Source: a virus
Reading direction: 5' to 3' (one strand)
Virus record (IMG/VR): IMGVR_UViG_3300003690_000002
Span: 1 to 64,000 of that record
Length of the DNA stretch: 64,000 nt
Shown: one piece after another, positions 11,519 through 53,000 of the stretch
Layout: each line of letters starts with the position of its first letter
Position numbering within the stretch: the first letter of the stretch is position 1
The notes under the pieces: generated by a model
What the model was told of the DNA's origin: nothing
Database searches by the model: none
The model's input: only the letters and a program-made list of their open reading frames with translations
Position numbers and translations under genes: made by a program

Positions 11519-11561
11519 GAAAAAACAAAACCCCATATCAACGAATGTCAATATGGGGTTT
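11519..11561 (-). terminator. Rho-independent terminator after major capsid gene
   Basis: A perfect 11-base inverted repeat (arms 11528-11538 and 11551-11561, AAACCCCATAT type) encloses a 12-base loop. On the minus strand the G-rich arm runs into TTTTGTTTTTT. It starts 24 bases after the capsid stop codon. It would isolate the very highly expressed capsid gene from the neck and tail genes. Confidence 0.9.
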
Positions 11562-11585
11562 CTTAAAAAATAATTTAGATTACTA

Positions 11586-13340
11586 TTAGCCGAGTAGATC
11601 AGCAACAATAACCACGCCGTACATATCAGGTCGAACCATCTTCTTCGCATACCGGGTCATAACTCCCTTACGAGGTACGAAATCTTCCGTACCGAAAATG
11701 GTGGGTGTAACCTGCAACGGTACATAAGGAGCATAAACGTAGCCGCTTTCAAGGAAGCTACCGCCCTTACGTCCAACCAGGACAACATTTCGCGGGAAAT
11801 ATGGGTCAACCCAAACGTCCCACTTCTTGCTGAGATTACCGGTTTTCACTGCACCTACAACACCCCTATCATCGTCAGCAGTAATGTTTGCGCGGAAGCC
11901 ACTAGTGAATTCCAAAACATTAGCAACCTCGGGGGAGACAACTAAGAAGTTGGCGCCGCCACGAAGAGTCTTACGATGAATCTGTGCGGATACATCATTA
12001 ATGGTTTCTACCAAAGTTTCATACCACTCTGATACTGTACCAGTAAAGTCTGGGTACAATGTCCCATTAGTCGACTTACCAGTGGTTTTATCTAAGAACT
12101 TACCTGGCTTGCGAGACCAGTAGTAAGTTGCCGCTTTAGCATCTTTCATCAAATCTTCAAGAATCTCACGGTCGATTTCGAGAGCAATGTGCTCTGAAAG
12201 GATACTTGTAAGCTCAACCTCTGCGTCAAGATTATGATAAGCATTCAAATCTTGACCCAATTCCGGTGTCCACTTAGCTTTAAGCTTCTTGGTGATTGCA
12301 GTGACGGACACTGAATCAACTTTGATGTCAAGTTCTGGAATATCTCGATTATCTTCGAGACCCCAACTAGTTTGACCAACAACGGCTCCAAGAGCATTGT
12401 TGCTACTAGCAGCTGGTGTGCCACCAAAATCATCGGTTAACGCAAACTTAACACCTGCATGCGGTATATCGTTGGTTGCGAAAGAGTATACCGTCTCAGA
12501 TCCTGTTGCTGCAACAACAATAAACAAAGTAGGATCTGATGGACTAGACGTACCACTAACAGTGGTCAACCTACGAATTTGTCTACCATCAACAATAGTG
12601 TTGCTAAAGTCAATAGTAACCAAGTTTGTCATGTTAAATTGATCAAATACTGTAGAAGCGGTCACAACTGTATAAATAGCCGCAACAGAACCAGACAAGT
12701 CCGGATCCCATCGAACAATACTATTCGCTATTTCGCTATCCATCGCAGCGTTGGCTTCAGCTTTCCAGTCGGTTCCACCGACCGTTCCACTAGCGTAAAT
12801 ATTCAAGAAACATGTTGCCGATCCGGTTGGAGACGAATAGCCTTGGTTTAATGCGTAAAAGCCCAATTGACTTCCAAGCGTTCCACCAATATTCATACCG
12901 CCAGTGATTGCCTGACCGACCAAATTATTGTCATCTCCATCAACGCCGCCGTATACCGAAGACGCACCATTTACCCCAAGACCACCTGGGGAAGCAGTAT
13001 ATTGGAAGTCCAAGAAGAACAGTAGCCCAGACGGCAAGCTCATTGGCTGTACCGATACCAGGTTGTTTGCAATCAAACCGCCGAAAACTCGACGAACGAT
13101 TGGAAACGCCACTGCCGCAAAACCTTCAACATCACCAGGGCTCGTAGAACCCATTGTTGAAGCCTCTCTTAAAAGCTCTTTTGCTTGATTTTCAAGTATG
13201 CGAGCCATGTTTTGTCTTTCGTAATCGTGTATGAGACCTTCTAAAAGTCCAGTTTGTTCCCACTTATCAAGTAGGGCTGCCCCTTCCTTTGACAGGTCTC
13301 TGTTAACGATTCCTTCTGTTAACTTTTGTAAAACAGACAT
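11586..13340 (-). CDS. Major capsid protein (gp23-like)
   Basis: This 584-residue precursor is HK97-fold by family. The clearest signature is at about residues 75-110: FPIVRRVFGGLIANNLVSVQ and the following MSLPSGLLFFLDFQY. A central insertion (about 115-300), rich in Gly, Ser and Thr, makes it longer than T4 gp23 (521). The second half has the expected ERK-type helix region (EHIALEIDREILEDLMKDA) and a C-terminal strand region (YVYAPYVPLQVTPTIF). T4 gp23 is cut after an (L/I)-x-E motif; here L57-R58-E59 before Ala60 is the likely gp21-type cleavage site, just ahead of the mature domain. Codon choice in this gene looks more G+C-rich than its neighbours. It follows the scaffold gene by 16 bases. 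Confidence 0.93.
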   Translation of the reverse strand: MSVLQKLTEGIVNRDLSKEGAALLDKWEQTGLLEGLIHDYERQNMARILENQAKELLREASTMGSTSPGDVEGFAAVAFPIVRRVFGGLIANNLVSVQPMSLPSGLLFFLDFQYTASPGGLGVNGASSVYGGVDGDDNNLVGQAITGGMNIGGTLGSQLGFYALNQGYSSPTGSATCFLNIYASGTVGGTDWKAEANAAMDSEIANSIVRWDPDLSGSVAAIYTVVTASTVFDQFNMTNLVTIDFSNTIVDGRQIRRLTTVSGTSSPSDPTLFIVVAATGSETVYSFATNDIPHAGVKFALTDDFGGTPAASSNNALGAVVGQTSWGLEDNRDIPELDIKVDSVSVTAITKKLKAKWTPELGQDLNAYHNLDAEVELTSILSEHIALEIDREILEDLMKDAKAATYYWSRKPGKFLDKTTGKSTNGTLYPDFTGTVSEWYETLVETINDVSAQIHRKTLRGGANFLVVSPEVANVLEFTSGFRANITADDDRGVVGAVKTGNLSKKWDVWVDPYFPRNVVLVGRKGGSFLESGYVYAPYVPLQVTPTIFGTEDFVPRKGVMTRYAKKMVRPDMYGVVIVADLLG

Positions 13341-13356: not shown

Positions 13357-14391
13357 TTATTTCTGTTTAATTCCTGCCAAAATTTGCATCCTATCCGCGA
13401 ACGAATTGGATTGTTTTACCTCCCGACGAGGCAAAAACGCCGAAGAGCGTTTATTAACCACTTCATTTAGTGATTTTGGTGCTCTATTTGAAGAAGCACC
13501 TTGTATTGCACTTTGAAGGGTCTCAAAGATTGTTTTTGTCTCTTCAACTGAAGTTGATTTTGTAATAGTTTCGACAATTTTATTTTTTTGTCGCTCATTC
13601 AAGGAGTCGCTATTCAAAATACGATTTGTATATAATAGTTTTGCATTTGAAAGATTCACTTTATTAAGCTTTTTCTTTAATTGCAAAGCTAAATTTTTAA
13701 ATTTTTCATTTTCCTCTTTCAAGTCTTTATATTTGCTTGAAAGTTCTTCTAATGATCGTTCGGCTGCAGAGCTTTCATCGGTTTCTTCAACCAGCTCTTC
13801 TTCTTGTTCTTCGGAAACTAACTGTCCTGTATTAATATTTTTAACACGGCGCCCTGGCTCTTTTCCGGTAGCGGTATCTGATGTTTTTGTCGCTTCTTCA
13901 AGTTCCTCATCATCCTTTTGGAGATCAAGCATGCCTTCTAATTCTTCCTCGTTTAATTCCACTTCCTCATCGACATCTTCTACTACTTCATCTAGAATAT
14001 TTTGTAGCATTTCTTCATCAATTATTACACCTTCTTCTAATTCTTCGAGTTCTTCACCTGCAAACTCTTCTCGATCTGCCATTTCTCCTGCCTCCAATTC
14101 TTCTTCGGCTTCTAGCCGTTTAGAAAGCTCATCAAAATCTATTTCAATCTCTTCTTCATCATCTGGACAAGGGCAAAGCTCTTCTCCGTCTGTTGCAGCC
14201 AAAGGTACTTGCTCTGCAAATTCGCCCTCTTCTTCATCAGTGGGAAGTTCTTCATCTTGTTCTAGCAACCTGTTAACAGCTTCTTTAATATCTTTTGAAT
14301 ATTTTTCAATCACTGCCAGTTCGGCGTTTTTAATGGCGGCATCTTTAAGCGCGTCTGCATCAATAATGGCTTGTTCAAGCAATCTAGACAT
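13357..14391 (-). CDS. Prohead core scaffold protein (gp22-like)
   Basis: This 344-residue, very acidic protein lies directly upstream of the capsid gene, the place of gp22 in T4. Residues 45-210 are dominated by Glu and Asp with few aromatics. Residues 215-300 form a Lys/Glu coiled coil (SSKYKDLKEENEKFKN). The C-terminal 40 residues are basic with RKQS-like segments (PRREVKQSNSFADRM). That bipolar, acidic-plus-coiled-coil make-up is typical of scaffolding proteins that fill the prohead and are then digested by the protease. N-terminal L-L-E and several later L-x-E sites would suit gp21-type cleavage. An odd CPCP pair lies near residue 75. A candidate late promoter stands 34 bases upstream. 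Confidence 0.75.
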   Translation of the reverse strand: MSRLLEQAIIDADALKDAAIKNAELAVIEKYSKDIKEAVNRLLEQDEELPTDEEEGEFAEQVPLAATDGEELCPCPDDEEEIEIDFDELSKRLEAEEELEAGEMADREEFAGEELEELEEGVIIDEEMLQNILDEVVEDVDEEVELNEEELEGMLDLQKDDEELEEATKTSDTATGKEPGRRVKNINTGQLVSEEQEEELVEETDESSAAERSLEELSSKYKDLKEENEKFKNLALQLKKKLNKVNLSNAKLLYTNRILNSDSLNERQKNKIVETITKSTSVEETKTIFETLQSAIQGASSNRAPKSLNEVVNKRSSAFLPRREVKQSNSFADRMQILAGIKQK

Positions 14392-14469: not shown

Positions 14470-15801
14470 CTATTGGACTTGCTCCCAATATCCATCTGGC
14501 TTAAACTTAATCACATTGGATTGATCTGTGCAGTAGCCAATAATTCTTTTTGCATCGCCACTTCCAGATGGAGCTATAGTATCCATATAGCCAGGAAGAG
14601 TACGAGAAAATACAGCCTTACCTTTATCGAAATTCATCAAATAAGTGTGCGCATCGAAATAGCCTTCTAATAGCATCCCGTTGGCTTGTGGATCTCCCCC
14701 TAGCGCTATTCCCAATAGTTGATTAGCACCTTCGTTGGCATCATCTGCATCTACGATTTGCCAACCGCCTACTGTGTTTAAGAAATAAAGCTTTCCTGTG
14801 GTTGTAGATCCTGTACCGTAATAAACTCTATGACCACCCCCAGTATCATTACTTATCTGTGAGGGATCATAAGCAACATCAAGCACTGTCGTAGGGCTAC
14901 CGACACGGATACCTACACCATTTTCATGAACAATCAGGGCGGGCTTACCGTTATTGCCAGTAGAGGATCCAGCTTCTATCTTAAAGACATCATAATCGCC
15001 AGATCCAGTCATTGTCGTCGGACCGTTAATATTTACTCCGGCATTTGCGCCACCAGCAACAAAGAAATCTATTTTATCATCGTGCGGATTTATAGCTATA
15101 ATATGTTGACCGTCAGCACCTCCAACTCCAGCACCAAAATAAACACTTCCTGAAAATTCTGTTCCTAATGTGGATCCTGAAATTCTTAATCTGTCCCTAT
15201 TATCTGCATCATATTCTATGAACGCATTTGCAGCGCTGCCAAAATATAAAAATTTGTCATCAACTATTTGTCCATTTTGATTAAAAATTACTCCCTCTTG
15301 ACCATTCGTTGTTTGTATAGTTAGGTACGCAGTTGAAGCTTCTTTAATCTCTAGCGCATTGGAATCATTGTCTGGTACTATTATATCTATGCCGCCGAAC
15401 GCACCGGATATGATAAGCTCATCTGTTCCATCTTCATCATATTCAATTGATGCATTTTGATCATTGCCAAACCAAAGCTTATTATCGTCTTTTAGAATAA
15501 TTCCCTTACCAGAAGTATCTAAAAATAAATTACCAATAGACGAAACCGCAAAATTTGCATAATTAGCTCCATCGTAGTTAATTTTAAGTTGAGGATCAGT
15601 AGTGCCTGTAAGTCGCATATGATCAACAAGTATAATTGAACCGGATATGGTTCCCGCGACGGTCAAATCATGACTCGGACTCGCCGTGCCGATGCCAACG
15701 CGGTCATTTGCTTCATCCACGACAAGCGTTGGGCTATCAACAGAAAGAGCACCAGAGATTGTAAGTGTTGGTTGGTCTCCTCGTCCTGATCTAAATCCCA
15801 T
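14470..15801 (-). CDS. Fibre-like repetitive virion protein
   Basis: This 443-residue protein is rich in Gly, Ser, Thr and Asp. Its opening GAxSVDSPTLVVDEANDRVGIG is the pattern seen at the start of many phage fibre or collar proteins. Two internal repeats follow, each a 'FG...A-I-E-Y-D-x-D' unit (about residues 110-135 and 185-210), with other short strands. These suggest a trimeric beta-structured fibre. The C-terminal region (about 310-443) is more globular, with YYGTGSTTTGKLYFLN and an ending DGYWEQVQ. It sits between head genes, so it may decorate the head or neck, but a tail fibre or whisker is equally possible. Confidence 0.5.
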   Translation of the reverse strand: MGFRSGRGDQPTLTISGALSVDSPTLVVDEANDRVGIGTASPSHDLTVAGTISGSIILVDHMRLTGTTDPQLKINYDGANYANFAVSSIGNLFLDTSGKGIILKDDNKLWFGNDQNASIEYDEDGTDELIISGAFGGIDIIVPDNDSNALEIKEASTAYLTIQTTNGQEGVIFNQNGQIVDDKFLYFGSAANAFIEYDADNRDRLRISGSTLGTEFSGSVYFGAGVGGADGQHIIAINPHDDKIDFFVAGGANAGVNINGPTTMTGSGDYDVFKIEAGSSTGNNGKPALIVHENGVGIRVGSPTTVLDVAYDPSQISNDTGGGHRVYYGTGSTTTGKLYFLNTVGGWQIVDADDANEGANQLLGIALGGDPQANGMLLEGYFDAHTYLMNFDKGKAVFSRTLPGYMDTIAPSGSGDAKRIIGYCTDQSNVIKFKPDGYWEQVQ

Positions 15802-15815
15802 TTATAAATAATCTC

Positions 15816-16211
15816 CTAATCAGTTAGCCCAGAACCTGTGAGGGATCCTGGCACGATTTCTTCTGCAGAAATTCCAGTTAATTCGGCGTATAACTGCCAT
15901 GCGCTATTGGCTGTAACATTTGTTATATAAATTTCTTTACATCTAACATTAAAAGTCATTGCGTCTTCGTCTGAATCTAGTGTAATATAGTGTCCGTTGG
16001 ACATCACATTGCCATCAGAAGATGTGTTAAAATGCACTTTTATAATAGATGACCCGGAAGCAATCACGGTAACTGCTTTTGCAACAGCTGGAAAGCTAAC
16101 TTTAAATTCCTCGGCAGCCACGCCCCAGCCTTCTGAGCCTGTGATAAATGGCTTTCCCGACATTTGATAAGAGCCGACGCTTCCAAGTCCTGCTCTATAA
16201 TTATGTGCCAT
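15816..16211 (-). CDS. Small beta-rich virion protein, possible head decoration
   Basis: The product has 131 residues with a good AGGAG site. It starts with a Gly/Ser/Tyr-rich arm (MAHNYRAGLGSVGSYQ). A compact, alternating hydrophobic pattern typical of a beta-sandwich follows, with segments such as FPAVAKAVTVIASGSS, an IKVHFNTSSDG strand and REIYITNVT-like ends. I recognise no named family. It is co-linear with the fibre-like gene and the bS21 gene, ahead of scaffold and capsid. A capsid decoration or fibre-attachment role is inferred from size, fold pattern and position. Confidence 0.5.
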   Translation of the reverse strand: MAHNYRAGLGSVGSYQMSGKPFITGSEGWGVAAEEFKVSFPAVAKAVTVIASGSSIIKVHFNTSSDGNVMSNGHYITLDSDEDAMTFNVRCKEIYITNVTANSAWQLYAELTGISAEEIVPGSLTGSGLTD

Positions 16212-16235: not shown

Positions 16236-16469
16236 CTAGTTCTGTTTTGTCATATTTTCTGTTTCTATCTGAAGTTTTTCCAATGTTCTTATTCTTTTTC
16301 GTTTGTCTTTTTTTCTCTTTTCGGATGGTTTTTCATAATATCTTTTTTCTCTATAATCTTCCATTATTCTTTCTTTTTTAATTTTTTTTGTAAACCGTCG
16401 AATCATTCTATCAATGGGCTCATTTGGATATCGTGGCGTAACTTCAACATTAATAGGTCTTTTTGCCAT
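16236..16469 (-). CDS. rpsU: Ribosomal protein bS21 homologue
   Basis: The product is a 77-residue, strongly basic protein. It matches bS21 along its core: NEPIDRMIRRFTKK corresponds to the bacterial NEPFDxALRRFKR helix. KRYYEKPSEKRKKDKRKR corresponds to REFYEKPTxERKR. Bacterial bS21 is about 60-71 residues, so this is complete, with a short C-terminal extension. bS21 binds the 30S platform near the anti-Shine-Dalgarno end of 16S rRNA and affects initiation. Phage copies are known from aquatic phages. Here it lies between head genes and should be co-expressed with them late in infection. A role in steering host ribosomes to phage mRNAs is inference. The ribosome site is AAGGAA. Confidence 0.88.
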   Translation of the reverse strand: MAKRPINVEVTPRYPNEPIDRMIRRFTKKIKKERIMEDYREKRYYEKPSEKRKKDKRKRIRTLEKLQIETENMTKQN

Positions 16470-16492
16470 TTTTTTATTATTTCCTTTTTACC

Positions 16493-16915
16493 CTATCTAA
16501 GTTTTTTCCATATTTTGCTGCCGATAGATGCAAGTCCAGATATATCAACACCTGCGTCTGATGGACTGGTTCCGGCGAGCGCTCCGCGTCGTGGTGATGC
16601 TTCATTAAGAACTCCAACTTCTGTTATTGGATCGATCCCTTCAAATATTTCAGTGTCTAATCCTGTTGCATTTAAAATCTTTTTTCTTCTTTCCCTGTCT
16701 TGTTCCCATTTTTCTTCTAAAAGTTTTTGCTGTTCTTTTGATCGTACGGAAGTTTGTTGTTCTAATTGTACTATAGGTTGTGGTGTGTTAGATGGTCTTA
16801 TACCACTAACAACTTCTGCAATTACTTTCGAAAGGATTCCACCTTCCAACAGGCTTTCTTTTATGCACTCTTTGACAATTGGTTTAAGTATTTTTTTTAA
16901 TTGTGCTTTTTTCAT
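16493..16915 (-). CDS. Unknown head-operon protein with N-terminal amphipathic helix
   Basis: The 140-residue product shows no recognised family. The first 35 residues form basic/hydrophobic helices (KKAQLKKILKPIVKECIKES). A Gln/Glu-rich coiled-coil part (about 50-85) and a Gly/Ser/Ala-rich C-terminal half end in GSKIWKKLR. Its N-terminus resembles that of the preceding gene product in style (Lys-rich helix ending I-K-E). I-K-E and L-L-E tripeptides near residues 20-25 would suit cleavage by the gp21-type protease. An internal head or core component, like gp67/gp68 of T4, is therefore possible but unproved. Confidence 0.5.
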   Translation of the reverse strand: MKKAQLKKILKPIVKECIKESLLEGGILSKVIAEVVSGIRPSNTPQPIVQLEQQTSVRSKEQQKLLEEKWEQDRERRKKILNATGLDTEIFEGIDPITEVGVLNEASPRRGALAGTSPSDAGVDISGLASIGSKIWKKLR

Positions 16916-16920
16916 TGCTA

Positions 16921-17532
16921 TTACTTTTGTTTTCTTTTTTTGGAGGGTTTTCGAGTTCTGCCTTCTGAAAAAGCGTGACGAGTTTTTATGCCTCCCTCAC
17001 GACCACGTGCCCGTGCCTGATATGCCTTCACTTCTTCTTCTCGGGCGCGATCAACTTCTCTTTTTTCGCCCATTAATTCATATGCTTGATCTGCAATCTT
17101 TCTCGCCCACTTGAGGGCTTCATCATAGCCTTTGTCTTCAGCCAAGTCTTTGAATGTAGCTAGTACTGCTGGTCGGATATGGCTTCCTTTTGGATAACCC
17201 TTCTCGCTGCCATACTTTTGTTCAATACGAGATCCCATATCTGAACCATATGGAAGCTTCGCATTCATAAGATGGTATTTGATTGGAGTTATTACGTCCC
17301 ATTTAATGCCGTGTTCTAATCCATAAGCTGCGTCTCGTGATAGTTGTTCTAATTCTTTATCAAGTTCTTTTTCCGCAGCTGCAGCTTCAGCAGGGTCGGG
17401 ACCGGATGGTTCTGGCTCCGGCTCGGCGGCGGCTTTCTTCTTTTTCTTGAACATATCAAAAAGGCCTTCATTCTTTGTGTTTTCTATTTCTTCTTTGATA
17501 ATTCTTCGTAATCGTAATTTTGTAATTTTCAC
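16921..17532 (-). CDS. Unknown head-operon protein, KEE-type N-terminus
   Basis: The product has 203 residues and starts at a GTG with AGAGGAG eight bases upstream. It opens with a short basic helix (MKITKLRLRRIIKEEIE), a start I have seen on many small structural or core proteins of large phages. Then come a Lys run, a Pro/Glu/Ala-rich linker (about 35-60), a globular helical centre (about 60-155) and a basic tail. No enzyme motif is visible. It lies directly after the prohead protease gene, so an internal head or core function is plausible. The I-K-E near residue 12 could be a protease site. Confidence 0.5.
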   Translation of the reverse strand: MKITKLRLRRIIKEEIENTKNEGLFDMFKKKKKAAAEPEPEPSGPDPAEAAAAEKELDKELEQLSRDAAYGLEHGIKWDVITPIKYHLMNAKLPYGSDMGSRIEQKYGSEKGYPKGSHIRPAVLATFKDLAEDKGYDEALKWARKIADQAYELMGEKREVDRAREEEVKAYQARARGREGGIKTRHAFSEGRTRKPSKKRKQK

Positions 17533-17535
17533 TTG

Positions 17536-18144
17536 TTATTCTCCTCTTAAAATTTCGTTTAATGTACGATTAATACGATCTGCTTTTGTCCATACTGTGT
17601 TCAAGTTTTGTTCTACATTTTCCGTCATCATATATGCACCTTGAGTTGATGGCTCTGAAACAAAATCAAAACATATTAATTGAAAATCATCTTCGACGAT
17701 TGTTTTTCCACTTTGTTCTCGGACGGAGCCTAATCCTCGGGAAGATATTCCAAGCTTAACTCCAGAATTAACTAAGCCTTTTAAAATATTTCCAGAAGGA
17801 GTATTTAATACTTGAATTTTACCCATAACCTCTTCACTATTCCACCAAACCTCTGTCACAAGATGGGAAGCATTTTTAAGGTTGATTACAGAATCTTCTG
17901 GGTGGTCTAGTTCGCCTAGTGCACGGCGCTCTTTCACAATTTTTTTATAATTTTCAATTTCTCTTTCTAATATTCGGCGGGGATAAATACGACCATTTCC
18001 ATTGAGTTCATCTGCCTTTTGTATGACACCGCTTAATATTAAAACACCATCTGCGACCAATCGTTTTTCATCTTCAGTTAAAAGATCTTCACACGTACCA
18101 CCAGGACAGAGTTCATAATATTCTTTAAGAAGCATTTTAGACAT
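17536..18144 (-). CDS. Prohead maturation protease (gp21-like)
   Basis: This 202-residue serine protease is of the herpes-assemblin-like prohead protease group. The catalytic His is H81 in GELDHPED; the nucleophile is in the KLGISSRGLGS motif (S134 or S135). A conserved strand pair follows (DDFQLICFDFVSEPS). After assembly it cleaves scaffold, core and capsid precursors, and finally itself. The length agrees with T4 gp21 (212). An N-terminal segment with two Cys (CPGGTC, residues 13-18) is unusual. It precedes the scaffold and capsid genes, with five other genes between, unlike the tight 21-22-23 order of T4. Confidence 0.9.
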   Translation of the reverse strand: MSKMLLKEYYELCPGGTCEDLLTEDEKRLVADGVLILSGVIQKADELNGNGRIYPRRILEREIENYKKIVKERRALGELDHPEDSVINLKNASHLVTEVWWNSEEVMGKIQVLNTPSGNILKGLVNSGVKLGISSRGLGSVREQSGKTIVEDDFQLICFDFVSEPSTQGAYMMTENVEQNLNTVWTKADRINRTLNEILRGE

Positions 18145-19145: not shown

Positions 19146-19969
19146 TAGCTTCGTATCTCTCTAGCTAGATTTTGAATTTTTAATATGCTAGTTAATGTAT
19201 TTTGATTAATATCTTCTAATTTAAAATTTTCAATCAAGTTTAATACTTTTTTTGTTTTATTTGTCATTTCGGTATCATCTTTAATTTCGCTTATCCGTAG
19301 AGATTCTTTTATAATATCGCGAAGCCTTCCGATTTCCTCATTGAGAAAAATTTTCAAGTCGATGCCGCCGTCGCTGAATGATAAAACATAATTATTCAAT
19401 AAGTTTTTTTGCTCTTCAAAGAGAGTGCCGCTATATTGTTCATTAAACTTATTAATAAAAGTTTTATAAATCAAGTTGTTAATTGGTACAGAGTTTTTCT
19501 TATCCTCGCTATCTTCTTTAGATATTAATCTCTCAAATATCGTCTCTTCTAGAAGAACACGAGATTTAATTGAAGTCTCTTGATTGAATATTTGGGAAAT
19601 GGTTGCCAAATTTTTAAAGTTTGGAACAAAATTTGAAAAAGCATTTTTAGATAATGCTTTATTAATTTTAGAAATTAATCTGCTTTGTTCATTAAATATT
19701 TTCTTTCTATCAAGATTCTGATGTTCATATTTAATTTCCTGAATCATTTTCTCTGCAGTGTGGGGCGCTAACTCGTGCGTCTCGTTCAGAACGCGGAAAA
19801 GCTCTAACTCTTTATATAAAAAACTTTTTTTGTGGAAGTATTCTTTTATTAAAAAAGTTATGTGTTGTGCTTTTTTATCTTGCTTGTGCATTACGCCTTT
19901 AGCCAATTCTTTAATTAATATTTCAAATAAAAAAGCAGTATTCCTTTTTTTATTATGTTTCAGTGCCAT
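19145..19969 (-). CDS. Unknown helical protein next to portal
   Basis: The product has 274 residues and is Lys/Asn/Ile-rich and almost entirely helical by composition. It starts with MALKHNKKRNTAFLFEILIK, a start I recall from large-phage conserved hypotheticals. Long helices run through about residues 50-130, and a helical C-terminal half ends with ILKIQNLAREIRS. It overlaps the portal gene's 3' end by 17 bases, so its translation is tied to portal. Possible roles include prohead core or portal assembly factor; neither is shown by any motif. Confidence 0.5.
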   Translation of the reverse strand: MALKHNKKRNTAFLFEILIKELAKGVMHKQDKKAQHITFLIKEYFHKKSFLYKELELFRVLNETHELAPHTAEKMIQEIKYEHQNLDRKKIFNEQSRLISKINKALSKNAFSNFVPNFKNLATISQIFNQETSIKSRVLLEETIFERLISKEDSEDKKNSVPINNLIYKTFINKFNEQYSGTLFEEQKNLLNNYVLSFSDGGIDLKIFLNEEIGRLRDIIKESLRISEIKDDTEMTNKTKKVLNLIENFKLEDINQNTLTSILKIQNLAREIRS

Positions 19970-21875
19970 CCTTTTTCAACTCCATTATTGATATTAAATC
20001 TTTAATTTCTCGGCTTACTTCTAAACATTGTTTTTCTTCTTGTTTATAATTAGTATCTATACTTTCAGAAATTCCTTTTCCAAGCCCTAGTATTTCCAAT
20101 GCGCCAGGGTATATTTGTCTTTTTGGAAGTTTGCCAGTCTCTGTTGAGCCTTTTGCTAAAAAATGTCGTTTTCTTGCGCCCATATCTCTTTTATCGTTTT
20201 TTGTTCGCTTATATAATTTCCCTTTTGATCCAGGTGTCAAATAAGGGTCGTCTCTTTTTCCCGGAGCTGCTAAAAGCGCGGATTCATCCTCCTCACCTTC
20301 TTCAGCCTCTTCTTCGGGAACTTCTTCACCCTCTTCGCCGAATTCTCCTTCTGCGCCTAATTCACCAAGCTCTCCTTCTGCGCCCAGTTCACCACCTGGC
20401 ATTCCACCTGCAGCCTCGGCGGCGGCTTCTTCACCTAGAGCTTCCAGAGCAGCCTCTATACTTCTATCAGAAAAAATTTCTCTTTGGTTACGTAAAAATT
20501 CTTCTTCGGATAAGTCAAATAGTTTTTGAGAAACCCAACGTTTTGAAAAGAACCCTTCCGTAGCATTGCTAGCAATTTCAAATTTAGTTCTCCAATGTTC
20601 AAGTTCTTGTAATTCAGCAATTTTTGATGGATTATTAAGTCGCAACGAGAATGATACTAAATCATCACCTCTGAAGCCTAAAGTATAAAGATGTATAATA
20701 CCAATTTTTTCCAATTCAGAAATAACCGATCTTTGAAGTCGCTGTACTGTTCTTGCAAAACGAATATCTTTCTGTGCTAACGTTGCTTTATCTTCTTCAG
20801 ACCCTTCTGCTCGGGACAAATAAGAAGCTGGAATTTTCAATGCCGAAAATAATTTATCTCTTAAATATTTAACATCTTCGATATCTCCAGTATAGGTGCC
20901 CCCTGGTAAGCTTTCTATTTTAGTTTGTGCTTGTCCACGCACTGGAATAAAATAGTCCTCATCAATACTCATAGGATTATAACGAAGGTCCACTCTTCCT
21001 GTCTCTGTATCGACAATTTGATTTCTTTTCATCGATGTTATAACTTTTTGCATATATTGTTCCACATCTTGTGGTGCAATATTTCCGACGTCAACGTAAA
21101 ACACTCTTCTTTCTGGGGAACGAACAATTCGGTATGCCATCATAGCATCCTCAAGTAGCGTTAATTGTCTCCATATTCTTCTTGCTGGCTCCAACACAGA
21201 TGTACCGTAAGGAGCATATTTATCATTTCCTAAAATTCTAAAATGCCCAATTTGCCAATTCTCAAATGTGATACCGCCTGAATTCCACTGAAACTGTACG
21301 TAGTTCGGATTTGTTTTATCTTCTCCTTCTAGTCTTTCTATATCCCCCGAGGGCAGACCAATGACATTTTTAATTCCCATTCCTTCATCAATATCTAAAT
21401 ATAGAAAAAAATCTCCATATTTGCACATGGTGCGACACCATCCGAATAGATTAAAATCAACATTTAAAATATTTTTATATAAAGATTCTAAAATAGATTT
21501 AATTTCTTCATTGTGACAATCAATAGTTAACATCTGTCGATAGCCATTGGATGTTGTCATCTCATCTGCGTATATATCAAGACCAGAAGCTATTTCCGGA
21601 GTATATTCCATTTGATCAAAATCCATATACCTTTGTACACGATTTTGAGCCGCCATTATATTGGCTTGTAGATTATCAAAAGGGTTATATGAAAGTCTTT
21701 GAAAGCTTTGACCCGCTACATCTTTAAAGGATCTTGCATATTTATCTAATCGCCGTCTACGAAGTTGCCTCGTTGTTTGAGATCTGTAATTTATTATTGG
21801 TCCAGAAAATAGGCGAGTTAGCCTTTTGAACAAAGGCGCAGTTGGATTTTTTGGGTTTTTGGTGGTATCAGCCAT
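19953..21875 (-). CDS. Portal protein (gp20-like)
   Basis: The 640-residue product makes the dodecameric ring at the head vertex that nucleates head assembly and passes DNA. Residues 60-480 have the gp20 family pattern, including EYTPEIASGLDIYADEMTT, the MCKYGDFFLYLDID region, and SAEGSEE-like residues in the LSRAEGSEEDKATLAQKD segment near residue 370. The C-terminal part has an unusual acidic low-complexity stretch (about residues 490-550) of repeated GELGAEGE-type units, then a basic tail. T4 gp20 is 524 residues; the extra length is mainly this tail. It is two bases downstream of the terminase gene, with an AAGGATAA ribosome site. Confidence 0.92.
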   Translation of the reverse strand: MADTTKNPKNPTAPLFKRLTRLFSGPIINYRSQTTRQLRRRRLDKYARSFKDVAGQSFQRLSYNPFDNLQANIMAAQNRVQRYMDFDQMEYTPEIASGLDIYADEMTTSNGYRQMLTIDCHNEEIKSILESLYKNILNVDFNLFGWCRTMCKYGDFFLYLDIDEGMGIKNVIGLPSGDIERLEGEDKTNPNYVQFQWNSGGITFENWQIGHFRILGNDKYAPYGTSVLEPARRIWRQLTLLEDAMMAYRIVRSPERRVFYVDVGNIAPQDVEQYMQKVITSMKRNQIVDTETGRVDLRYNPMSIDEDYFIPVRGQAQTKIESLPGGTYTGDIEDVKYLRDKLFSALKIPASYLSRAEGSEEDKATLAQKDIRFARTVQRLQRSVISELEKIGIIHLYTLGFRGDDLVSFSLRLNNPSKIAELQELEHWRTKFEIASNATEGFFSKRWVSQKLFDLSEEEFLRNQREIFSDRSIEAALEALGEEAAAEAAGGMPGGELGAEGELGELGAEGEFGEEGEEVPEEEAEEGEEDESALLAAPGKRDDPYLTPGSKGKLYKRTKNDKRDMGARKRHFLAKGSTETGKLPKRQIYPGALEILGLGKGISESIDTNYKQEEKQCLEVSREIKDLISIMELKKDGTET

Positions 21876-21878
21876 CGT

Positions 21879-23453
21879 TTATCCTTTTAGTAGCCATGCA
21901 AATTCTCTAACTTTGCTAATCTCATCATCAAACTGTGTTGATTTAGGTTTAATCATTCCAGGAATTGTTGTGTCTAGTGTTGAATTAGTTTTTATCATCG
22001 CGTCTAAACAAGCCTTCTTGTATTCAGCATCTCTTTGATTTTCAATCAATGCAGTGTCGCGAACCCAACAGCCAATTGCACAAGCAATAATCAAATCATC
22101 ATTATAGGCTCTCATTGATTCTGGACGACCGTTGTGCCAAACAAAAGTTTCTAGCTCGCTGCATAACCTTTGTGAATGTATAGTAAGTAGCTTATTTCTA
22201 ATGAATTCTTCAAATTTTGCGACAATTAAAGGTCTTGTTTTCAACGATGTTGTAAACCCTGCAATAGCATTTGACCTACTCTCAGCTTGAATCTGATCAA
22301 TATATTCGTGCGATGATTTAATTGAGTGATAAATGTTTGAATATTCTTTTTCTTTTAACTTTTCTAAAACTGAAAACCCGACTGTGTTATTTTCAACAAC
22401 AATCATACAACTTCCATACTCGTTTCCGGCATTATATATAATTTCTGAAAATATATCTGGTGTCACTTTTCCTTGATATTCGGCAATAATCTCCATTGTC
22501 TCTATTTTAAAAATGTGAAAGACTGAATAATCCTTACCATCTCCTCGGGCAACATCTGCAGATAATAAATAATTATTATCTGGCTGGAATTCTTCCCAAA
22601 TCCAAAAATTTCTATCGAAGGCGGTTTTATATTTTGGTTCTCTCGTATTTTTCTTTATTCTGTTTATATCATCAGAATGAATAACCGTTTCCCCAGAAGT
22701 ATTAAAATTACATTCAAGCTCTTGTGCAATCTGTCGGCGTGACATATTTTTTGTTTCATTTTCAAACCATTCTTGATCTCGTTCTGGGTGTACATCCCAC
22801 GCAAGATCTATTGGATAGAAATCATTTTTACTAGATACCGAATCAATATATGTTTGATGAAACCAATTACCTACACCATTTGGGGTTGAAAGCGCAATGC
22901 AGCGACCACCTGTTGAGAGGGTTGGGTATAGACCGGTCCATAACTCCCCCAAGCCTTCAACATGTGCCGCTTCATCCACAACTAATAAAGATAGTGCTTC
23001 TGAGCGCCCTGCATCTGCAGAAGTTGTAGAGGCTTTAATTTGAGATCCGTTGCTCAGTTCAAAAGATGTTCTATTGTCGATAGAAACTTCTGCAATTCTT
23101 AACCAGGGTGGCAAAGTTTTAATTATTGTTTTAACTTTCCTAACAAGATTTGTGGCGGTACTAAATTTAGTTGCCATAACAAGAACATTTTTATCGCGAT
23201 GAAAAAGCATTAGCCAAACAACATATGCTGCAGTGATAGTTGATATTCCCAGCTGTCTAGCTTTAAGGATGATTGTAAACCTATGATCATTGAACTTTTC
23301 TAACAATTCAGTTTGATAATCATATGTCTTAAAGGAGATTTGTCCTTTTAGCGGATGAGAAATTTTAGTATAATTGTTAATAAAATAATCTGGATCTTTG
23401 CCAGATTTAACGACTTCTTGAAGAATTTCTTTTTTGGTTAATTGATAGCTCAT
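21879..23453 (-). CDS. Terminase large subunit (gp17-like)
   Basis: This 524-residue packaging motor has an N-terminal ATPase and C-terminal nuclease. ATPase motifs: Walker A-like LKARQLGIST (about 64-72), Walker B LLVVDEAA (156-163), and coupling motif ALSTPNG (187-193). The RNase H-like nuclease has D300 in SADVARGDGKDYS, E354 in VVENNTVG and D452/D453 in NDDLIIA. It pumps DNA through the portal and cuts it. Length is somewhat below T4 gp17 (610). Unlike T4, the sheath and tube genes do not follow; portal does. No recognisable small terminase (gp16) lies beside it. Confidence 0.94.
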   Translation of the reverse strand: MSYQLTKKEILQEVVKSGKDPDYFINNYTKISHPLKGQISFKTYDYQTELLEKFNDHRFTIILKARQLGISTITAAYVVWLMLFHRDKNVLVMATKFSTATNLVRKVKTIIKTLPPWLRIAEVSIDNRTSFELSNGSQIKASTTSADAGRSEALSLLVVDEAAHVEGLGELWTGLYPTLSTGGRCIALSTPNGVGNWFHQTYIDSVSSKNDFYPIDLAWDVHPERDQEWFENETKNMSRRQIAQELECNFNTSGETVIHSDDINRIKKNTREPKYKTAFDRNFWIWEEFQPDNNYLLSADVARGDGKDYSVFHIFKIETMEIIAEYQGKVTPDIFSEIIYNAGNEYGSCMIVVENNTVGFSVLEKLKEKEYSNIYHSIKSSHEYIDQIQAESRSNAIAGFTTSLKTRPLIVAKFEEFIRNKLLTIHSQRLCSELETFVWHNGRPESMRAYNDDLIIACAIGCWVRDTALIENQRDAEYKKACLDAMIKTNSTLDTTIPGMIKPKSTQFDDEISKVREFAWLLKG

Positions 23454-44095: not shown

Positions 44096-47000
44096 TCATT
44101 CGTCGTCTTCTTTAATTAGTGTATCTTGAACAGCTTTTTTATCTTCAAGTTGTGACGTTGCGATCTTCGCTGCTTTTGAGCTTGCTATCTGCGCTTCTGT
44201 TGGCGATGTGCTTATTGTAAATGCCTCTTTCGGAACAGTAGATAACGATTCATAAGGACTAACTTGTTCTGTAGTTGATGGAATCGTTACCCTTGCATCT
44301 ATTTTGACTAATTCTACTAACGAAAAATAATCATATGGCCAGTTATAACTATATGGTAATTCACCCTCTATTGTAGAGGTTTTTCCACCCTGTTCAAATT
44401 TAAACTTAAATTTTGCATCATCTTTTGAATCAGATGTTAATTTATAGTAGTTACTTTTTCCTCTTTGCTTAACTTTAAATACCATCCATCTTAACTTACT
44501 TGGCACTCTTCCATCTGTTGATTTATAAAATTCATTTGCCAAAAGTTGGTGATTTACTGTGGCGTGAGCTGTTTTAAATGGGGTTTTTGGATCCATTCCC
44601 ATATCTGGTGGTAAGTTCTGCCACATGTCTGCTAAGTCTTTTTGGGTAAATTTAACTCCAAAATTAAAAAGATACATCGCAATAGGATTTATATCTGGAT
44701 ATGTAAGAAAATCAAACTGGGGAGGGAATACATAATTTTTCATTGAATTGACCATGTGTCGTATAGACACTCCAGGTCTTTTTGCCTCTTCTATATCTTC
44801 AAGTTTGGTTGCACCTACATTAAGTGCTATAGCCTCTTTTATCATAGCTCTATCAAGAGTAAAAAACTTCTTCTCAACGCCTTCTTCAACAAAAGGTATT
44901 GCCACAACAGCTTCCAAAACTGTTTTCATTTCTGCGACTGTACCAAGTTTATATGATTTTTTTGTATCAAATCCGACAAGATCTGCTAAAGATTTATAGT
45001 TCGGGTATACTCCGATATCAGTTGGATCTATAATATCCATAAATACTCCTTTATTGGATCCAGTTGGAATTTGTCCATATTGGTGCCACATTCCTTTGGC
45101 AATCGAAGCAGTGCCATATTGAGGTAAAGTAACAATTGAGCCGCTAAAATCTAATATTGGACATTCCCATTTGGGTTGAATAGCCCATCGTTGGTTATCG
45201 GCAGAAGAAACTGAAGTTATATTTCCATCTGCATCAAATGTGGGGCTTGGCTCATTTGACAATTGGAGAAAATTTAAACACGAATCAGGTTTCATTTCAG
45301 GTGAAGGATCTCCCTTGTGCGCAGCATAGGGCGAGGCAAACGTATTGTGCACATCCGTACCGTTATCCTGAACCCAATAGTGAGACATCCATTTGGTTTC
45401 TTTAATCCGCCATGGGATTATATTGCAATTATTCATAATTTCTGTCAAGGTTAACCTAAGAGGTTTATCGGGCATGCCTTCTATTGGACCGCCGATTGCC
45501 CCTTTTGCTAGCGCGCCGGTTATTGTAAGTGTAAATTTGAGTCTTGATGACCCATTATAATAAGGTGGTGTGTGCGATGAATATGATGCACTAGTAGTCC
45601 CCTGGATGGTTAAGGAATTTGCTGGTCCGATATCGTCGCTGAGCAGCGAACCTACTGCATAAGGTGGTCCGAATGAAGAACCATAACTATCAATACTTGC
45701 TGTTCTTTCATACATTTTTATTGTTGGCGGATTATAAATAAGATTTGATTCGCGTTGTTCGAGATTCTTCAAAGCAACAGATGGTCGCCACGGAGTATAA
45801 TCTGAAAAACCGTCGCCACCGCCGTTGACTATCTCTGAATTTCTAATTGTGCCATGGCTAAGCTCTACATGCATCACATATGTTGCACCAGATACAACAT
45901 TAAAATAGTTTGGATCTTTTTCCGGAGCCGAAAGCGCTGTTGTCAGTTTTCCACCTGCTAAGAAAAAATCTGGGACTGCTGCTAGGAAGTTATGCATTCC
46001 CAATGTATATAATTGATTGTGAGCTGCTTTGATGGAGGCTGTGCTGTCAATATGAGCATGGGGGTGTGGTTCTGCATCAACAATTAAAATTCCGCCATAT
46101 TTACTTGGATCAATTATTGCTTCAAATGGCATTCTATATCGAGGAAGGGTTTTAATTCTCGGTATACCAGCAACAACAACACCGCCCCGATCAGATTCGT
46201 AGCTATCATTTCTTGAACTGCCAGTAGTAACAAAAGAACCAGTATGAACTGGATAATCAACAGACATGCCAGATTTAATACTATTATATAATATCCCAGG
46301 AGCAAAAAATGGCGTAAGTGCAGTTCTAAAACTTTTCTGAGTGCCGCTTAATTCCACCGTTGGACCATATGATTCTGAAAATAAAGTAGCTAATTGAAGC
46401 GTTCTTAAGGCAGGATAAAATCCATCATATGGTAAAAATTTCATGTAAGCCTTGCATTGCAAACCAAGGTAGTGAGGCTCGTCTGAAACGCTAACATGAT
46501 CATCATTTATTTGATCGAAATATTTTAAAAACTCTGTATTACTGTAAGTTGTATAAAAATTAGCCTCGCCGCTACTACTAATAGAAGAGCCTGTCAGCGA
46601 TAAAAATTTTGGATTTTCTGCTCTAAAGTTTCCGCCGTGTTCATTAATATAAAATGGCATATGCTCACTTATTCTAAATTCGGGAATAATTGTATAATCT
46701 TTACCACAGCGTCTCATTTGATCAGCCCATGTATTATAATTTTCTGGGAACGGATCTTTCCCTGCTTGCGCGCCTGCTTCCCAAAGAGTATCATTAGTAA
46801 ATATTTCTGCACGTGCAGATTGAGAGGTATAAACTTCACCAAAAGTTGATGCAATTGGTCTTGCGTAAAGTGCCCCATATGGTTTCGAGGCTGGTGTTGC
46901 CTGCCAATCAGAATCAGAACCAATATTCCCTGAAAAAACTTGATAATTATTTAATAATTCGCCCGCTCCAGTAAACCCACCACTCAAAATATCAGTGGAG

Positions 47001-50000
47001 GCTGTTAAAAACCCAAGTCTTGCATCTAATGGCCATCTGCTTTGTCTAGCAATAGTCAATCCTTGTGAGTTTGTTATACTAGCGGTTACTAAATCTGTTG
47101 CTCTTCCGTTTCCGGGGTTTTCATATGGTAATTCGACTCGTTGAGTACCATGTGTGGTGCCTCTATCTTTTCTCCAGAACGGCGCAACAAACATCTCTCG
47201 ACTTCTAGCTTTATTAAAATAAGTATATTTTTCTTTTGGATAGATTGTTTCTCGATATAATAATTTTCCAAACTTTTTAATTGGATTTGATTCTTTTGGC
47301 AATGTGATAAGATCGGGATCGTATAATGAAAGAAGCTTGTAGTATTTTTGATTTAGATTTGGTGAAGTAATGCCTAGCTTGTTATTTAATTCGCAGTTTA
47401 CAAATTTTACTAAATTATTAGCATAAGTGTGTCTAACTGACAGTGGTTGAAGCTTGCCATTCTCTGTCTCAATTACAAACGTTTGGCTAATTGGCTTAAA
47501 TTTTGATGTACAAACTGATTCTGAATAATGCGTAAAAGTATCACCTCTAATTGCTTTAGATGATGTAAGCACATTAGAGGACTTCCCCTTTCCATCGTGG
47601 GCAGATTTAATAATAAAAGTTTTTGTTTTTGGGGCGTCTTGTATTGATAAGATATTCTTTTTTCTGTGGAGACGTGCGACTGGATGCTCTCCAGTTCTAA
47701 TTTGCTTCCACGATGGATATCCATAGTTGCCTCCACGGTGGTGTAATAAACCGTTTAAACCACACATGCCTTCGTCGTAATTCACGTAATCTAAAGACAA
47801 TGAATAGCGAGGCTTTACCGCATCAGAAATTGATAAATAATAATTAGGTCCGATGGTAGTAGACGGTGAGTAAATGGTATGATTTCCCAGAATGCCGCTT
47901 ATATGACTAGCTGCGAGGCTGCGACCGTCAATTGAAGCTTCTGGCGGGTATCCAAGAGTGTTCTGAGATGCTGATATAGGCTCATGCATGACCAAATTCA
48001 TGCCGACAAAATCAACTTTTATTCTATGGTAATATGCGGCGCCGTATTGTAAGGCATTTGCCGTAAGCAATCGACTGCCCCCTTGACCCACTGCGGCCAC
48101 TTCGCTCTCACTAATGAATGTAATACTAGTCGATGCCCCGCCAGCATTGCTTCGATCAGGCTCTTCATAACCAAAAAATGGTAGATTCCCAGACATCGAA
48201 GCAGTAATCCATGCATATTGTTTGTCACTTCTTGGAATTTGATGTTGAACCCAATAATTATCATGGACCGTGGCAGTTAAATATGCCTCGCCACCGTAGA
48301 AAGGATCGCCAGAAAATATACTAGATCCAGTATGAGATCCAGAAAGCACTATCCGCTTTCTTGAATTTCTATTAGTTTTATAAAATGATGCGCTACTATG
48401 ATAAGTTGTTTCAGAAACGGATCCACTAGTGCCAGGAAAATATGTTTGATCAGCCAAGAAATAACTTGCTGAATTATGTTGGTCACTAAAATATCCAAAT
48501 TGTTTAACATGGTCTGTATATAATAGTCTAAGAGGTTCTCTGACTGTAAAGTTTCTATAATTTAGCATATTTTGTACAGCGTATTCTTCTGATTCAACAT
48601 CAAGATAACCTCTTGACATAACTTCCGGACCGCCAGGGGCAGAAAATCTTTCTACAAAAACAAACTTATTGGTTCCAGATACAGCCCGGTTAGGAAGTGT
48701 AAAATCGAAAACACCAGAAACGGCAGCAGATTCGACAATTTCTAAAGTAAAACCTTCATTTTTCACAAAAGCTCTATTGTTTGTTCTTCTTCCCGATGTA
48801 TGAAGTATCTCATAATCATGCATATAATTTCCAATTTGCGTCTCATATCTTACACCAGTTGAACCACTTGAACCTGTTGTTTGTCGAATATTTCTAATAT
48901 TCACTGGTCTTTTTGCAGTCCCATCTCTATAGAATGATGCTCTTGGAAGAGTAGAATCGAAACTTCCTATTGGATCACCCTCTCTAAAAGCGGGATTAAT
49001 TACGGAGATGTGATGATTAAGACCAATTCTAAATGCTTCGGGTCTATTATCTTTGGCATCCATTGCGCCGGAATTTATATTAATATGTCGATGTTGATTT
49101 CCTCCGACAAACTTTTCGGTAAATGGACCCTGCATTGGCGTTTCGTAGTCTGGTCCATATATGTCAGCGTGGATATTTGTTATATCATACGTAAACATAG
49201 GTCCGGTGGATGCAGTAGAAGGTTGGTAGCCATAATTGGTAAATCTCGATGACAAATAACTTGGCGAAATTGAAGAACTATGAATATTAAACGGATATAA
49301 AAGATCGCCCTTATATTTTTTATTGTCCTTATGTATTGTTGCTCCAAATCTGGCTTTTGTTTGATCATTTTTATACAAATCATAAGCATCAGTACAATCT
49401 TGAAATAATTCTAAATCTTGACCATATAATGGCGCTGCTGAACCCGTAAAAGAGCGACTAACTTGTGTATACAAAACTGGTTTCAATGAAGAGCTTCCAA
49501 ATCCTTGAAGCGTTTTATAAAAGTCCGGTTTCTTATTGTTAGAATAGTTAATACCGCCGTGTAAAACTTGTGTTTTTTTAACAAATAATTTGTATGGTTT
49601 GGAAAACTTTCTTAATGCGTATGAAGATCCTTCATAGTTATCAACATCATAAAAACTGCTCGATAGATTTGGACCACTCCTCGAAACTACAGTTGTAAAA
49701 GTTTTTAATATAGAGTTTTTATCAGCATCAATATTAGAATCTCCAGACGACAAGGAGGCATCACTTCGCTCTGCACGATCTTTCCACCAAAGACAATTAT
49801 TATATTGTGCTTGTTCGTCTGTTCCACCAGTTAAAGTTGCTGGTGATGATGACGCGCCGTTTTCAACCATAACCCCTATAATATCAGTAAACACAATGCC
49901 ATTGCCAGTTATACCTAGTTGAGTCGCGGTTATAGTTATCCGATTGGAAGTTCCTTCTGCGGCGGTAATCCCTGCGATGCCGTTAGTCACATCCCCGGCG

Positions 50001-53000
50001 CCTGATCCATACGCGACAGAATTGGAAGGCGAGGGAGTACCTCCAGCAATAGCAGTAACGAGGCGTGCGAGCAAGGCGGCGCCGGTTCCGGCTGTGCTAA
50101 CTTCTACTTGATTTGCGGTGGAGGACGAAGGTGTTCCAGCTACCAATTTAACTGTTATATCAACGCCAGTTCCGCCAGCAGCAGTGGGGACATTGACTTT
50201 AAATCTATCATTATTATTATTACCGGCTATTGTTAATAAATTAACTACTTCTGCTTTAATATCGCCGCTCGGTATCGGAGCATGCCCAAATTTCCAATTA
50301 TAGCGTGCGTCTTCTCCACCAAGTAAACTCGCTGCATCTGGCTCAGCGGTTTTCATCTCCAAAGTTGGGAATTTAGTCCAATATTTGTTTCTTTCCAAAA
50401 CATGGCTTTCAACAATCGTTCGAAGGTTTGGAGAAAAGTTTGCTGCGGCTGGGATAAGTTGTAATAACATATCTCCAATAGCAGAATCAACCCATTTATA
50501 GTAACTTACATACCTATCGATATCTGGGGTATTATCGATTCTTTCGAAAAATAATTGTCTTAATTTGGATAAATCTTTATATTCTTGACGATATCTGTTG
50601 ATAGGTTCGCCAATCAAATTATTAAAATCTTTAACTGAAGCAAAATATTTAATTACTTCATCAGAAATTGTTTGATACATGCTTTTTTCAAATGCAAAAA
50701 ATAAATTACCGGGTCGATGATCTTTTGTAAAAACTTTATCAATACTTAATTCAATATTGATCATGTCTTTGCTATTAAGTGTTTCTGGCAATTGGCTTTT
50801 TACGGAATGAACATACTCTCTTTCAATGGAACCACTATCGCTAGTGTAAAAGAAATTTCCTTTACCTGTGTGTTTATTTTTAATAATATTACCAAGCCAT
50901 GAATATCGACTTGATAATGTGGCTGAACCTGTGGCGGCATCTGGTACGAGAAATTGACCGTCTGAGTTTGATCCAGAAACGGTTTCGAAATCCCAATGAA
51001 GTGCCAATGTGTCTATTTTTGGAACATATATAGCTGTGGACCCTGTTGAAATGGTGTTTTGAAACAAATACGCATTTTTATAAGGATCTTCTGCTCCAAA
51101 ATTTAAAGCATCATGGGCGTGCAATTTGATGACATCATTCGATAAATAATCCATCCAATATCTTAATGAAGATATTTTAACATCTGTTCTCTGTAAAATT
51201 GTTCCTGTGAAGTTTGTTCTATGTGCACCAATATATAATCTTTTAGGGGTGGTCATAAAATTGATACCATTATCATATGACATGGTTCCAGTAACTAAAA
51301 ATTCTTCAGCAACAGTATCAGCCACTGCATTAACACCATAAAATTCTACAGTATATGTTTTGCTAAAAACAGCATCGCTTCCAGAAATAAAATCCACAAG
51401 AGGATAATTTGTTGGTTTGACACGAACTGCAAAATTCCATTTTTTATTAGTATACACACCTCTAAACACACTACTGGTAAGATCGGGAATAAAACCGCCT
51501 ATCGATCCAGTTAATCTAAAATAAGCATCCTCGCCGCTATATTGTTCAGTGGCACTATATGACCCTTGCGTAGCTTTTCTTACGGCATATACTTGAAAAT
51601 TTGCATAATCAGGCGCTACTACAGTTAGCCGCCCTGATGCTGTGTGTGCGGTGTGCATTCCAAATAGTGATGATGTATAATGTGGGTAATCAACATACAA
51701 ATCGCTGGCAGGTTCAAACTTTTTAGGAAACATAACTTCTGCTTCAACTGTTGCTGGGAAACCGGCTTCTTTTTTATTACCCCTGGAGGCAGAAATAAAT
51801 GCAACAGAACTAGGACTTTTACTAGAAGTTTGTTGATATACAGTTGCTTCGTATTTTAAATAAGTGCCCGGTGTAGATGCATTAAAATCTACATAATTTT
51901 TTCGTGCTAGAGTTGTTCTATAATTATCTTTAAGTTCATATGTGGCATTCTCACCATAAAGATTTAATTTAACAACATTCTCGTCGATTCCAAAACAATG
52001 TAATAAATTTCGAAACGCAGTCTCCGTTCCTTTTGATTTATAAATATGCGTTAAATTATTATAAATATTTTGATAAATTAAATTTTTAGTATCATGTAGT
52101 TTTTGTTCAAAAGCTTCAGTCTCACTGCGGGAACCAATATTCTCCAAAGTTTCTGCATCTGCAAACAAATCAGGCGTAATAAACCCTTTCGATTCCAAAA
52201 GTCGATGTGAAAAGGGAAGCGGTTTACGACTTCCTGTAGATGGATATGAAGTGTTTTTTAACTCTGTTAAGGATTCAATTTGTAAAAATAATGTGTCAAA
52301 GTAACTTGATAGAATCTGCGTTAATTGTAATAAAGTTCCGTCATCTTCTTCCGTTATCCATTGCGGAATCATATTATATAATCCTGCATTGTTTTCACGG
52401 TCGTAAAGCTCACCTATTTTCTTTTTTTCTACTAATAAATTATTAACTTCTGGATGTATTGAATATATAATTGGGTCTTTATATTCTTGAGTGGCAGCAT
52501 CAGCTTCAACAATTGCAGATGCTGTGTTCCTAGATCCAAGTACGTATCCAGTCCATGTTCCATTGGAAACTCTTCCAGAGTAATCTAAAACTGTCTTATC
52601 TTCTGTTTGTACACTAGAAGTATTGTTAATGCCTTCATTAAATTTATAATATATACCTAAATTAATATTTGCATCGATTGTATTTGTTCCACCTTGAACT
52701 TGCGTAAACCAATGCCTGCCGATATCCCTAGAAGTTCTTGGATTTTTCCAAAATCTAAATTCATCAATTGATGCAGATAGTTTACCCCATCCACGCGCTG
52801 GTGCATCTGCTGAATATCGGCGTTCTCCATCAGATGAGGCTGATGGCGAGGCAACAAGAGATCCGATTGTTGATACTATCGCTCCGCTAACATAGTTAAC
52901 ATTTGTTGAATCAGCAGTTATTTTATGATCATACTGTCCATCAATATATAATTTACAACTTACGTCACTTCCTGTGTTATGAAATACAAAAGCATAATGA

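Follow-up and report, generated by a model that had tools for sequence, protein, structure and literature searches.

The window, a stretch of 64,000 nucleotides covering positions 1 to 64,000 of the 186,398-base virus record IMGVR_UViG_3300003690_000002, carries a gene for the ribosomal protein bS21 within a minus-strand cassette of head genes (Table 1). Along the direction of transcription, the cassette reads terL, portal, three genes, protease, two small genes, bS21, two genes, a scaffold-like gene and the major capsid gene, and the gaps that separate bS21 from its two neighbours are 23 and 24 nt long. A sequence-only reading of the window had placed bS21 between the protease and scaffold genes. 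Its position in the cassette stands, with two small genes before it and two genes after it, whereas the acidic gene that precedes the capsid gene is a scaffold candidate by position only and has zero Pfam or PHROG matches.

Table 1. Genes and sequence features of the head cassette around bS21, in window coordinates.
Feature	Position	Strand	Basis
Large terminase subunit (terL)	21879..23453	minus	Pfam Terminase_6N, PHROG 2
Portal protein, T4 gp20 type	19953..21875	minus	Pfam Portal_T4
Prohead core protease, T4 gp21 type	17536..18144	minus	Pfam Peptidase_S77, PHROG 207
Small gene with N-terminal KLRLRRIIKEEI motif	16921..17532	minus	Directly after protease
Conserved small gene, 140 aa, immediately upstream of bS21	16493..16915	minus	Alignment of 4
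Shine-Dalgarno-like AAGGA, at a long spacing of 12 nt from the bS21 ATG	16482..16486	minus	Read from sequence
bS21 gene, 77 aa, ATG start	16236..16469	minus	Pfam, TIGRFAM, PHROG and PDB sequence matches; AlphaFold2; dN/dS
Small gene immediately downstream of bS21	15816..16211	minus	Homologues in many relatives
Gene between the preceding gene and the acidic gene	14470..15801	minus	Position in cassette
Acidic gene before capsid gene, putative scaffold	13357..14391	minus	Position and composition
Major capsid protein, T4 gp23 type	11586..13340	minus	Pfam Gp23
Terminator-like stem, 16 pairs and T run, just after capsid gene	11527..11562	minus	7 sites in region vs 8.0 expected

The 140-aa gene immediately upstream of bS21 gave zero family matches at E 0.001 in a profile search, and its family adjoins bS21 in most relatives. 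The other small gene begins with a motif of the type K-x-K-L-x-x-I-I-K-E-E-L/I, which recurs in several otherwise different ORFs, with further examples at 122.8 kb and 141.5-143.8 kb of the window's record; it is perhaps a shared targeting peptide. The longest ORF called in the window (44096-53797, minus strand) spans 3.2 kilocodons.

The identity of the 77-residue product, in which the bS21 core had been recognised from the letters, was borne out. Both of the strings cited for it (EPIDRMIRRF and YYEKPSEKRKK) are present, residues 15-61 match the Pfam family Ribosomal_S21 (PF01165) with 55.5 bits (curated cut-off 27; E 4.7e-15), and TIGR00030 gives 48.6 bits against a curated cut-off of 28.95. 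The product also matches PHROG 21469, 'ribosomal protein S21' (E 1.8e-10), its top solved relatives in a PDB sequence search are bS21 chains (E 2.1e-8), and PF01165 has this one match in the entire record. An AlphaFold2 model, made from an alignment of 23 viral sequences that included the window's, consists of two helices (residues 19-43 and 48-76; mean pLDDT 84, pTM 0.41). In a PDB fold search with this model, the top match was chain U of the E. coli 30S subunit, which is bS21; the match is weak (E 0.079), as expected for a protein whose two helices take their final shape on rRNA. Viral bS21 genes are under purifying selection, with a median dN/dS of 0.09 and a maximum of 0.33 over 65 close pairs. 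Judged by its sequence, the gene is a true bS21.

A maximum likelihood tree of bS21 does not contradict this identity. It was built on 79 columns from 111 sequences, 57 viral and 54 bacterial, after removal of duplicates and of sequences shorter than 45 aa. The window lies among the viral sequences, with L002 as its nearest neighbour; 45 of the 107 inner branches are open and no supported group holds the window. Viral and bacterial sequences part with two label changes, at weak support, and the window has no bacterial sister among the bacterial sequences listed, a lack that means little because these are a subset of the matches. The hope that the bS21 sequence might help to identify the host was thus not realised: with so short a protein, weak support and no bacterial sister, the tree names no host. 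A tblastn search for isolate phages with the window's bS21, as another route to the host, gave zero matches at E 0.01, and a scan of bacterial genomes with this bS21 alone confirmed zero relatives.

In the near clade of the window, bS21 is nearly fixed on the strand of the head genes. The bS21 alignment, used as a query, retrieved 80 of 91 viral relatives. In the majority of those related to the window the cassette recurs, again on a single strand, while the DNA covered around more distant bS21 relatives (e.g. L066-L068 and L072-L090) contains none of the window's head genes. To avoid circularity, two anchors other than bS21 were used, the protease and the 140-aa gene, and bS21 was sought at the anchored loci with an HMM of viral and bacterial bS21 sequences plus that of the window. 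Each anchor set consists of the best 80 loci of a larger set (at least 421 and at least 593 relatives), so that the fractions apply solely to the near clade, and the two sets overlap in some contigs. With the 140-aa gene as anchor, bS21 lies downstream on the same strand in 73 of the 80 best loci, and on the opposite strand in none; in 66 of these 73 it is no more than 100 nt from the anchor gene. Among the seven misses, four have less than 600 bases downstream and three (L202, L239 and L248) are without bS21 in the DNA covered. The protease anchor gave bS21 in 57 of the 80 best loci, always on the same strand, and 19 of the 23 misses have less than 2 kb downstream. When only usable loci are counted, namely those where the capsid gene was found or at least 2 kb lay downstream, bS21 is present in 51 of 55, with six short bS21-bearing loci left uncounted. 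Each of twelve long records also has one PF01165 match at E <= 0.001; eleven of these matches are above the family cut-off, and four of the records had been reached via bS21 itself.

The isolates closest to the window in portal, capsid and protease are the Flavobacterium phage immuto and the Microcystis phage Mel-JY01 (PP395634). In Mel-JY01 the order and strand of the window recur, from terL, portal and protease through a small gene and an annotated RpsU S21 to capsid; this phage differs in having another small gene before bS21 and a more divergent bS21. The cassette of immuto is of the same type as the window's but without bS21 at that place, and a search of the entire immuto genome found bS21 to be absent, which makes bS21 dispensable for this type of head.

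Late expression of bS21 together with the head genes is likely, given that the gene lies within the head cassette. Co-orientation is uninformative on this point, since 147 of the 151 genes called in 184 kb of the record (the window and six 20-kb stretches, L007-L012) share one strand. The stem just past the capsid gene is by far the longest of the terminator-like sites in the region, the other, weaker ones on the minus strand sit within genes, and a scan for terminators from the protease to bS21 revealed no convincing one; a single late transcript that stops just beyond capsid would fit this arrangement. T4 late promoter octamers (TATAAATA) are not enriched (11 seen vs 9.2 expected), and sigma-70-like sites, at 33 seen vs 37.7 expected, are uninformative. 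In the phages of Chen 2022 (PMC9723584), bS21 and core structural genes were highly expressed and the phages were judged to be in late-stage replication; the bS21 region of those phages is described as not being a single operon.

We consider it probable, with good confidence, that the gene is a true bS21 of a T4-like myovirus, most likely expressed from a late transcript shared with the head genes, whose product probably joins host 30S subunits beside the 3' end of 16S rRNA and replaces or supplements the host's bS21 during the bulk production of virion proteins. What the sequences themselves show is the identity and position of the gene, its near-fixation in the clade, the purifying selection on it and the lack of the aromatic residue that hides the anti-SD; late timing, ribosome entry and a benefit to phage translation we infer. 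The benefit could equally well be a steady supply of initiation-competent 30S subunits. Entry into the ribosome need not mean help, however, because the bS21 of pelagiphage HTVC008M, after entering E. coli 70S ribosomes, left them inactive (Mizuno 2019, PMC6375957). Since Mel-JY01 is in culture and has the layout of the window, late timing and ribosome entry could be tested in a native host, for which immuto offers a natural comparison without bS21.

The sequence-only reading had proposed that exchanging bS21 could favour the strong AGGAG sites of the phage genes. Among genes defined as the longest ORF from the first ATG, with at least 100 codons, Shine-Dalgarno (SD) sites are clearly enriched: sites of at least 4 nt precede 79 of the 151 starts in the window's record, compared with 16.7% of 2706 internal ATGs, and sites of at least 5 nt precede 43 of 151, compared with 4.0%. 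Four bS21-bearing relatives have sites of at least 4 nt at 20/33, 21/30, 26/33 and 26/37 starts; at annotated starts the counts are 27/42 for Mel-JY01 and 2/51 for immuto. Within the 90-140 kb part of immuto (L359), such sites are rarer at starts (2/43) than at internal ATGs (27.7%), and this phage seems to avoid SD-like sequence. Because SD use is genome-wide in the window's record, and immuto is without bS21 and almost without SD sites, the phage of the window probably infects an SD-using bacterium. A retuning of ribosomes by the phage bS21 towards the strong SD sites of virion mRNAs would agree with the overall enrichment, with the location of bS21 next to the anti-SD and with the shifted SD preference of F. 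johnsoniae bS21 mutants (PMC9976891), but we think it unlikely. Sites of at least 5 nt are not significantly more frequent in the head and tail part (10/25 genes) than elsewhere (33/126; Fisher p = 0.22), which leaves the AGGAG idea unsupported; bS21 itself is preceded by AAGGA, spaced a long 12 nt from the start, and retuning would be superfluous in an SD-using host. For the same reason, a bS21 that replaces or tops up that of the host need not alter the choice of mRNA.

In a second alternative, bS21 would belong to the virion or prohead and travel inside the head along with the DNA; Chen 2022 (PMC9723584) put packaging forward for testing. The gene does lie among prohead genes and beside two small genes that could encode core proteins, yet the product has kept the full bS21 core under purifying selection, a small basic protein of this kind already has a ready role in the ribosome, and the same type of head cassette does without bS21 in immuto. 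We regard packaging as decidedly improbable.

Tyr54 of F. johnsoniae bS21 stacks on the anti-SD region, and each of the 61 phage proteins in Chen 2022 (PMC9723584) has an aromatic residue there. Flavobacteria hide their anti-SD (PMC9976891). By an ungapped count from the KPS motif, with the F. johnsoniae sequence verified against 7jil, this position is R61 in the window's bS21, in contrast to the aromatic of the Chen 2022 proteins, and no aromatic follows Y45. With a YEKP-type anchor, the aromatic is missing from all 57 distinct viral sequences, the window's included, and likewise from all 54 distinct bacterial ones, among which no Bacteroidota are listed. It could be argued that the host is a Bacteroidete whose own bS21 hides the anti-SD, which the aromatic-less phage protein would free for SD-bearing phage mRNAs, the more so as F. 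johnsoniae ribosomes with the Y54A change yield 3-fold more protein when the template has a strong SD (PMC9976891) and Flavobacterium is the host of one of the isolates nearest in head proteins; this is very improbable indeed, given that immuto, a genuine phage of Flavobacterium whose cassette is the same, has neither bS21 nor SD sites, that the other near isolate, the cyanobacterial Mel-JY01, has both, and that an SD-using host is the simplest reading.

The window's record also encodes a one-piece tmRNA with the tag ANDNVEFDYAMAA at 100984-101366 (L008:16984-17366), on the minus strand, with an Rfam score of 96 bits. Over-cut-off tmRNAs, with varied tags, were present in 6 of 24 related records in one scan and in 4 of 8 in a second. 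Each of the eight related records examined that exceed 150 kb has a tmRNA, as does that of the window (nine with bS21), while it is absent from 2 of 4 records of 120-150 kb, and neither Mel-JY01 nor immuto has one over the cut-off. We suggest tentatively, and with more doubt than belief, that bS21 is a core rather than an accessory gene of the clade, a constant member of the head cassette that is produced alongside virion proteins and has a phage tmRNA as its companion, the two forming a small ribosome-maintenance kit for initiation and rescue that would sustain translation as the cell fails late in infection; joint action of bS21 and tmRNA is speculation.

That phages carry bS21 genes, as the earlier reading stated, is well documented (Chen 2022, PMC9723584; Mizuno 2019, PMC6375957), and the phage protein clearly exemplifies how a virus can bring along a replaceable part of the ribosome. 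Mizuno 2019 describes it from HTVC008M and many uncultured viruses, and HTVC008M itself, a Pelagibacter phage, is a marine myovirus that, like the phage of the window, encodes its own bS21, which in that case enters E. coli ribosomes (PMC6375957, PMC7029224). Al-Shayeb 2020 (PMC7162821) reported huge phages with rpS21 and tmRNA and proposed an interception of ribosomes; those genomes exceed 200 kb, N-terminal extensions of S21 are stressed, and the text of that report, as far as it is drawn on here, states no location in a head cassette. Another close precedent is Chen 2022 (PMC9723584), where the phages are likewise myoviruses whose bS21 lies amid the genes for terminase, portal, protease and capsid, and where late-stage expression has been reported and late substitution in the ribosome proposed; of the 900 phages with bS21 that had been published, 310 have the prohead protease no more than 10 genes away from it. 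Both the placement of bS21 next to head genes and its expression late in infection are thus previously published, and the window is a good new example that brings no surprise on this score.

The phages of Chen 2022 differ from that of the window in several respects. Their bS21 gene runs counter to the head genes, whereas it shares their strand in the window and in all 57 bS21-bearing protease loci, and their complete genomes measure 293-331 kb with 5-25 tRNAs, compared with a record of 186 kb in which 3 tRNAs were detected over 184 kb. Their hosts are Bacteroidetes, while the phage of the window makes wide use of SD sites, sharply unlike immuto. We found no published precedent for a near-fixed, same-strand bS21 or for its link to the 140-aa gene in a literature search that left most subscription journals outside, and we see the two together as a modest extension of the published work. 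The near-fixation of bS21 beside the head genes, in phages whose hosts probably use SD sites, suggests a role that goes beyond dealing with the hidden anti-SD of Bacteroidetes.
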